Source of the DNA: an uncultured Candidatus Nitrosopumilus sp.
Lineage (GTDB): Archaea > Thermoproteota > Nitrososphaeria > Nitrososphaerales > Nitrosopumilaceae
NCBI GenBank assembly: GCA_951812655.1
Contig: OX638319.1
Coordinates: 1,527,620-1,591,619 of the forward strand
Length of the DNA: 64,000 bases
Direction: 5' to 3'
Shown here in pieces: positions 34,848 through 57,653 of this stretch. Under the pieces are notes generated by a model. It was not told the origin of the DNA. It saw only the letters and a list, made by a program, of their open reading frames with translations, and ran no database searches. The translations under genes and the position numbers were made by a program. Position 1 is the stretch's first letter. Each line of letters begins with the position of its first letter.

Positions 34848-35894
34848 CTACACAGTAGACTCGATGCGGATAGGAATTTTCTTTTGTGCCATCCACACGG
34901 CACACATTCCCACAATTGCGCCAGGAATCAGCATGAATGCCAAAACAATTATCAAAGTTTCAGAAAATTCTGGCAATAGTTCATAGCCTGAAACACCACT
35001 GAACACGTAGAATTGTATGTATGCCATTCCGACTAACGGCATACTATATATCAAAAAAACAGAGCCGATCAGCCCTCCTGCAACATATTCGCTAAATTTA
35101 CCCATTTTGATTTTATTGTTCATCAAGTAATCAGAAAATATTGCAATGGCCATTGGCAACGCATACCAGGGCAAATATCCCCATAATGCTTCAGACGGAA
35201 ATATGTTTGCGGTGATGTTGAACATGATCATTGATGCAGCCACTGCACTTCCCCAACCAAATTTTTTCATAGATTTTACAGAACACCAGAAAACCAACAC
35301 GCTGAAAAAGGGCATCGTAAATGCAAGAATCACTCCTGCCACGTATGGATCAGGGTTAAAATTCATTGTCTCACCGTTGGAAATAGGCAGAGTGAATTGG
35401 AAAATGAATGCGATTATGAGAATCCACAACGACGAGAACGACACAACCAGTGCAGGCTTGACAATTTTTAAATCAAAACGAACCAGTCTTGTCAGTCCAA
35501 TTACAATTCCAACGGATTGAATCAGGATTCCCGTAATGAGAGTTAAATGAGTTGGACTAAGCAAGCCATCTACTCCAAACAACTCATGCCACGCATAGTC
35601 ACTGGGCCCGGCAACAATTTGGATTAGACTGCCAACAATCATCAATTTTAAACCCAGGGAAAAAGATGCCTCACGAACTTCTTTGTTCTTAATCAAAATG
35701 ACAGATGCCATTACTCCGGCCACAACTCCAATTCCAACACCAGAATACAAAATAGCATGCGGAGGAGTGAAAAAGGATTCAGGTGCACCCAGTAAATGGC
35801 TTGTGATGTCCCAGCTACCGCCCCAAATTTGTAAAACACTGCCCAACAATGATACGGTCAAAATAACTAGAACCAATCTAGGAGGTAATCTCAT
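34848..35894 (-). CDS. Polytopic membrane protein with two AmoC CuC-like D-x3-H-x12-H motifs
   Basis: 348 residues with about nine predicted TM segments. Two metal-site-like motifs repeat 70 residues apart: D29-x3-H33-x12-H46 (FFTPPH) and D99-x3-H103-x12-H116 (LLSPTH). Both have the spacing of the CuC ligands of PmoC/AmoC (D-x3-H-x12-H with TPxH), as does AmoC in this window (D41, H45, H58). Outside the motifs I see no obvious AmoC similarity, and the protein is nearly twice as long. A membrane Cu or Zn site is likely; enzymatic role is unknown. ATG at 35894 with an AT-rich promoter upstream. Confidence 0.75.
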   Translation of the reverse strand: MRLPPRLVLVILTVSLLGSVLQIWGGSWDITSHLLGAPESFFTPPHAILYSGVGIGVVAGVMASVILIKNKEVREASFSLGLKLMIVGSLIQIVAGPSDYAWHELFGVDGLLSPTHLTLITGILIQSVGIVIGLTRLVRFDLKIVKPALVVSFSSLWILIIAFIFQFTLPISNGETMNFNPDPYVAGVILAFTMPFFSVLVFWCSVKSMKKFGWGSAVAASMIMFNITANIFPSEALWGYLPWYALPMAIAIFSDYLMNNKIKMGKFSEYVAGGLIGSVFLIYSMPLVGMAYIQFYVFSGVSGYELLPEFSETLIIVLAFMLIPGAIVGMCAVWMAQKKIPIRIESTV

Positions 35895-57089: not shown

Positions 57090-57653
57090 ATGGCTCAGAT
57101 GCCCGCATTAATCCCAAAAGAAGTCGAGATCCAGAGACTAAAGAAAATCTGGCTTATCGTCATCGCAATGGGTTCAGTTGCTGCATCAGTCGAAGTGGAT
57201 AACTTCGTTGATGGATCTTTGCATCAGACCTCTATCAGAGACAGTGCATTCACACCAGCTCACTGGTGGCTATACTCACACTTCATCACATTACCGATTG
57301 GATGGGGTATGGCAGCAGTCTATGATAGAAAAGTACCAATTCTCAGAGGCCCAAACAACTCGATGAACACAGGATTGAAGATGACCATCATAGGCTATCT
57401 TGCAACCATGTTCACGATCGGAGTCAACGAGATGTGGCACTTCTGGTTCGTAGAGGAGATCTTCGCAGTACCAAACCACTGGATGTTTAACATGGGAGTC
57501 GTAGTGGCTTTCATGGGCGCATTGGCATACGTGGTCAGAGTATACGCTCGACTCGTAGAACTAGGCGCAGAGACCCCTGGTGAGAACCCATACGTTGCAG
57601 AGATGTACAAGATGGCCCTTGAAGGCAAATTGTACAGCAGAGCAATCCCTTAG
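57090..57653 (+). CDS. amoC: Ammonia monooxygenase subunit C
   Basis: 187 residues from ATG 57090 (the TTG-like start 15 nt earlier adds five residues). Polytopic membrane subunit of the copper monooxygenase that oxidises ammonia to hydroxylamine. CuC ligands are visible as D41, H45 and H58 (VDGSLHQTSIRDSAFTPAHW) and the CuD set as N113, H117 and H130 (NEMWHFWF ... PNH). Length is standard for archaeal AmoC. Codon choice is more C-rich than in neighbours, as expected for a highly expressed gene. amoA, amoB and amoX are not in this window, so this is a stand-alone copy. Confidence 0.97.
   Translation: MAQMPALIPKEVEIQRLKKIWLIVIAMGSVAASVEVDNFVDGSLHQTSIRDSAFTPAHWWLYSHFITLPIGWGMAAVYDRKVPILRGPNNSMNTGLKMTIIGYLATMFTIGVNEMWHFWFVEEIFAVPNHWMFNMGVVVAFMGALAYVVRVYARLVELGAETPGENPYVAEMYKMALEGKLYSRAIP

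Follow-up and report, generated by a model that had tools for sequence, protein, structure and literature searches.

A stand-alone archaeal membrane protein with counterparts of both the CuC and CuD sites appears to be a distant relative of AmoC/PmoC

Nitrification and aerobic methane oxidation begin with enzymes whose active site recent work has placed, amid debate, in subunit C (PMC12576850), for which no wider family is described in the literature searched. Published structures define two sites in this subunit, CuC (Asp156/His160/His173) and CuD (Asn227/His231/His245) (PMC12576850). One study describes both as conserved among the AmoC/PmoC of archaea and bacteria (PMC10030591), and another (PMC9038741) differs with regard to the D site in Thermoplasmata sequences. 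We analyzed a 64,000-nucleotide stretch of DNA from an uncultured Candidatus Nitrosopumilus sp. (contig OX638319.1; hereafter the window) in which a stand-alone gene, P0002 (34848..35894, minus strand), carries two motifs of this kind with neither amoA nor amoB beside it. The open reading frame starts with ATG and has 348 codons, encoding a polytopic membrane protein with ten predicted helices. Does the resemblance of its motifs to the sites of subunit C reflect chance, convergence, or descent, and what might such a protein do on its own?

We found both motifs exactly as the initial annotation, made from the sequence alone, had stated: D29-x3-H33-x12-H46 (motif 1, 35757..35810, minus strand) and D99-x3-H103-x12-H116 (motif 2, 35547..35600, minus strand), with TPPH and SPTH as their [S/T]-P-x-H endings. 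The true AmoC of the window (57090-57653) likewise carries the CuC ligands noted earlier, D41/H45/H58 (57210..57263, plus strand), together with CuD-site ligands N113/H117/H130 (57426..57479, plus strand) that share the x3/x12 spacing of motif 2. One D-x3-H-x12-H motif arose in 0.06% of 200,000 shuffles of P0002 and two in none, and among 1,456 unrelated ORFs from the fetched loci, eight had one motif, none had two, and none had the strict [ST]-P-x-H form. The dual motif of P0002 is not a product of chance.

The initial annotation could put no family name to the protein, and our single-sequence search likewise placed P0002 in no family of Pfam, NCBIfam, or the PDB. These databases and the literature searched hold no description of its family, and the literature searched offered nothing relevant on AmoC-like stand-alone proteins. 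Profile searches pointed to subunit C. A profile of 37 family members from which AmoC was left out (A1) matched five of 177,635 PDB sequences, all of them AmoC/PmoC chains (best E=1.2e-5), and in the alignment motif 1 coincides with the residues of CuC and motif 2 with those of CuD. The core profile A3 (57 members) returned 14 PDB sequences, all subunit C (best 1.5e-6), and the core profile with bacterial members added returned the identical 14 CuMMO subunits C from the whole PDB (E 6e-7 to 9e-4) and nothing outside subunit C at E<=10. Profile A5, built from the five N-type sequences with Asn at the second site, did not reach CuMMOs in the PDB by itself. Within the source genome, A1 matched AmoC at E=1.9e-10, and P0002 as a single sequence found both AmoC copies (E=6.6e-4 and 1.2e-3), with AmoC-like places in many relatives matched at similar E-values. 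Reciprocal single-sequence searches between P0002 and AmoC gave about 1e-3 to 1e-5, and an AmoC query returned true AmoC and its fragments first, with family members directly behind them. In hhalign comparisons, the family matched AmoC at 95% (score 52.7), compared with 24.7 for the best of 41 polytopic membrane decoys (at most 9%) and near 0% for AmoA and AmoX.

The relation is distant. PF04896, the AmoC/PmoC family, did not match P0002 at E<=10, its search of the source genome did not reach family members, and at E<0.1 it matched eight of the 57 core members, the best of them at 5.9e-4, all short of the curated score. We conclude that the P0002 family and AmoC/PmoC are, to judge by their sequences, distant homologs, with the conserved signal around the metal sites. 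The family is a distant sister family within the same superfamily, and we file it outside AmoC/PmoC because it misses the PF04896 cut-off, has no A or B genes alongside, and mostly replaces the CuD Asn. The suggestion that P0002 may be an ancient relative of AmoC is thus upheld by the PDB profile search and the reciprocal matches, and by the ligand conservation, half-versus-half comparison, and ligand placement at helix ends described below.

Masking 15 motif-region columns abolished the AmoC signal, which shows that the similarity resides mainly near the metal sites. This loss is what would be expected if the AmoC likeness were convergent and the triads bound zinc (or iron) in a membrane hydrolase. 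Asp/His triads are typical zinc ligands. A Foldseek search with the core model, in which AmoC 9pxf_G came third among generic helical bundles at only E=0.34 and TM 0.45, would also be in keeping with convergence. We nevertheless regard a hydrolase as improbable: with the six ligand columns alone masked, AmoC stayed the top match (20.6 bits); the PDB search returned CuMMO subunits C alone; and the order, spacing, and helix placement of the ligands, as well as a CuD-type Asn in five members, agree with AmoC. In addition, Pfam scans of P0002 and the archaeal cores gave no hydrolase match, and the profile for intramembrane zinc hydrolases of the ceramidase/CREST type found nothing among these or the 30 mixed cores.

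The initial annotation had read the two motifs as two copies of the CuC site. Motif 1 does fall on CuC; motif 2 does not, and the published CuC and CuD residues together with its alignment on CuD make it the CuD counterpart. Both His residues of the CuD triad are present; the Asn is found in five archaeal members, whereas P0002 and nearly all others have Asp. The internal duplication proposed from the spacing of the motifs was borne out when profiles of the two halves of the core were compared with each other (68 columns, 98%, E=1.7e-13). Such an alignment suggests that a single internal duplication gave rise to CuC and CuD.

Conservation of the six Asp and His residues across homologs held in the 37-member alignment, in 143 archaeal sequences, and in the bacterial relatives. 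The only invariant columns of the 37-member alignment were D29, H33, H46, Y50, H103, and H116, and D99 was kept in at least 90% of its members. Both motifs were present in all 143 archaeal sequences checked, with Asp/Asp in 138 and Asp/Asn in five (L043 and L160-L163, which have N-E-x-x-H, as in AmoC and PmoC). All bacterial relatives read as protein kept the dual motif; as an example, DESWHTDIGRDSFWTPAH of the Mycolicibacterium member can be set against DASWHQVIIRDTSFTPSH of a bacterial AmoC. Across archaea, bacteria, and AmoC (alignment A6), the ligands are invariant save for the Asp/Asn exchange at the second site. Family members sort into three groups, A (P0002 type), B (about 360 aa), and C (about 200 aa), and there are divergent ones besides. 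The source genome itself has two P0002 paralogs, a full-length one (33%) and a shorter one (~200 aa) limited to the first part. In two relatives, the P0002 ortholog is split over frames or truncated (G009:C1:261991-263026 and G010:C70:2209-2571); some species may therefore be able to do without group A.

AlphaFold models of the full-length protein (pLDDT 88.4, pTM 0.90) and of the core (93.8, 0.88) place all six ligands at the ends of transmembrane helices, starts included. D29/H33 lie near the end of helix 5-34 and D99/H103 near the end of helix 79-106, while H46 lies at the start of helix 44-69 and H116 at that of helix 114-140. The core domain, residues 5-143 (35466..35882, minus strand), comprises four helices and is the part homologous to CuMMO subunit C. 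Positive charge alternates between the loops of P0002, and by the positive-inside rule both motif loops, and with them the metal sites, would face outward. The C-terminal half (34851..35462, minus strand; about six helices) showed no detectable relation to AmoA, AmoC, AmoX, or the N-terminal half of the protein, and is missing from the short ~200-aa paralog group. Foldseek matched the whole of P0002 to generic helical proteins only in the PDB, and the core model had no significant match in the PDB or BFVD. The BFVD search with the core model (ma77fb1e75b2f) listed proteins of Acidianus bottle-shaped virus (A0A0N9NXX0 and A4ZUD7) that superpose on its four helices at TM about 0.7, with non-significant E-values.

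A profile search of genome contigs (A2) found 108 relatives, and the best 80 of these carry thaumarchaeal names, save one labeled only "archaeon"; the A2 scan therefore did not pick up the bacterial members that plasmids later revealed. These came from tblastn of plasmid records and belong to Arthrobacter, Rhodococcus, Streptomyces, Mycolicibacterium, Leifsonia, Rubrobacter, Nonomuraea, Deinococcus, and Paenibacillus; where annotated, they are "hypothetical proteins," and on the actinobacterial and deinococcal plasmids their genes often lie within copper-resistance islands. The N-type member L160 had no match among plasmids, and neither IMG/VR scans nor phage tblastn returned relatives. In the family tree, a single AmoC serves as outgroup, on a very long branch.

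Among the archaea, the family is common in f1, the family to which the source organism belongs, and in f8, both of which bear AMO. This spread in AMO-bearing families, together with the relation to an AMO subunit, is what one would expect if the protein assembled AMO or loaded it with copper in ammonia oxidizers. We doubt this reading: the f2 genomes sampled yielded no member, although the one tested among them has AMO; members occur in seven archaeal genomes without an AmoA match and also in bacteria, Deinococcus and Streptomyces among them; and the genes are unlinked to amo genes.

These seven genomes all encode COX1 and are in that sense aerobic, compared with 5 of 14 family-negative genomes (P=0.007, without phylogenetic correction). 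Such an association would fit a stand-alone CuC/CuD copper oxygenase or oxidase that turns over a small outer substrate with O2, a minimal relative in CuMMO chemistry. Both candidate active-site triads are conserved, as this reading would have it, and CuD has been argued to be the active site of pMMO (PMC12576850). The A and B partners are, however, absent nearby, no electron-donor or substrate pathway gene is recurrently linked, the CuD Asn has become Asp in most members, and the copper-resistance neighbors of the bacterial genes suggest homeostasis instead. We therefore consider an oxygenase unlikely; in falling order of likelihood, the rival explanations are the stand-alone oxygenase, the zinc hydrolase, and the AMO assembly factor.

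The bacterial neighborhoods consist in part of genes for multicopper oxidases, heavy-metal P-type ATPases, and CsoR-type regulators, along with HMA, YHS, four-helix copper-binding, and cupredoxin proteins. Copper-type labels applied to 18 of 139 neighbors, compared with 8 of 236 genes in six control stretches taken from six of these plasmids (Fisher P=6e-4), and 7 of 11 loci held at least one such label, compared with one of the six control stretches. These are hand counts with labels chosen post hoc after seeing the loci, on PLSDB plasmids that are rich in metal-resistance islands; one control stretch is itself a copper island. Three bacterial loci hold a cysteine synthase-MFS pair resembling cysK2-Rv0849, genes of the copper-responsive RicR regulon (PMC10470581). 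In the recurrent neighbor clusters of the archaeal members that we read, we recognized no copper genes. Most group B archaeal loci have, directly upstream, a gene whose product is Ig-like, secreted, and anchored and bears the conserved signature PH-x5-H...D-x-Q-x-E (alignment A4); this protein is a candidate metal-binding partner. It occurs across Nitrosopumilus, Nitrosotalea, and Nitrososphaera (e.g., L002:2585-3163, minus strand) and has only a weak BatD/DUF11 match in Pfam. In Nitrososphaeraceae-type loci (L080-L082, L085, L098, L106, L110, L115, L120, and L122), the next gene after the group A homolog, on the same strand, encodes a TetR-type regulator. Five actinobacterial members (L196, L197, and L201-L203) have a C-terminal beta domain, which starts with AHDPGQG after a hydrophobic stretch and is followed by a last hydrophobic helix; only that of the Streptomyces member was matched in Pfam, weakly, to FixH/YtkA. 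Comparison with AmoB revealed no detectable relation for the A4 partner, and the bacterial beta domain was rejected as a relative of either AmoB or A4.

The conserved triads, their outward placement, the copper-gene neighbors, and the Ig-like partner or fused domain together favor, with a probability of roughly 55%, a role for P0002 as an outward-facing polytopic copper-binding protein that handles copper, works like CopD/YcnJ, and shares ancestry with subunit C. The first four helices form a duplicated helix-loop-helix unit, each copy bearing on its predicted outward side a D(N)/H/H triad that is homologous to the CuC or the CuD site. Copper would most likely be bound at both triads, on the outward face of the membrane, and might be acquired there, buffered in its oxidation state, or handed over to other cuproproteins; P0002 itself would not be an ammonia monooxygenase subunit. 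From the suggestion of a new membrane copper or zinc protein, a distant AmoC relative with conserved ligands has emerged, and we infer copper as the metal, the occupancy of the sites, the direction of transfer, and the function.

CopC/CopD and YcnJ exemplify an outward polytopic copper protein that is often paired with an Ig-like copper-binding domain. By analogy, the P0002 family would share with them a polytopic membrane part, outward ligands, a paired or fused Ig-like extracytoplasmic domain, and linkage to copper genes. Membership in CopD itself was rejected, as PF05425 matched none of P0002, 57 archaeal cores, six bacterial full proteins, and 30 mixed cores. With AmoC/PmoC, the family has in common the core of four helices with both triads in order, about 70 residues apart, at helix ends, and with the window AmoC also the conserved Tyr after the third ligand. 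Unlike AmoC/PmoC, its members score below the PF04896 cut-off, stand without A and B, occur where AmoA was not found, mostly have Asp for the CuD Asn, and carry extra C-terminal helices or a beta domain. Ammonia oxidizers can also have extra amoC copies, and like these the P0002 family genes lie away from other amo genes. N. viennensis, for example, has six AmoC, and such extra copies are genus-level duplicates of true amoC (PMC10030591), whereas the core of P0002 shares only 26% identity with AmoC.

Such a relative, standing alone and with both triads conserved, would offer a simpler system for CuC/CuD chemistry, an outgroup for rooting the CuMMO tree, and an origin of the two copper sites that is open to testing. 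The family may show where the copper-binding core of the ammonia and methane oxidation enzymes came from. We tentatively propose, at clearly less than even odds, that subunit C descends from, or shares its origin with, this widespread stand-alone family of membrane proteins with duplicated copper sites used for copper handling; a single D-x3-H-x12-H unit would then have been duplicated internally to give CuC and CuD before there was a monooxygenase complex. Genetically tractable laboratory strains allow the bacterial members from copper islands to be tested. As to the true amo genes of the source genome, its two AmoC copies (window 57090-57653 and G000:C1:259130-259690) are 99% identical, and the window copy has no full amoA nearby, amoA lying at C1:257920-258468. 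A possible amoA fragment is found at G000:C1:1306903-1306989, where 29 residues match positions 139-167 of Archaeal_AmoA (E=2.5e-7, above the cut-off).
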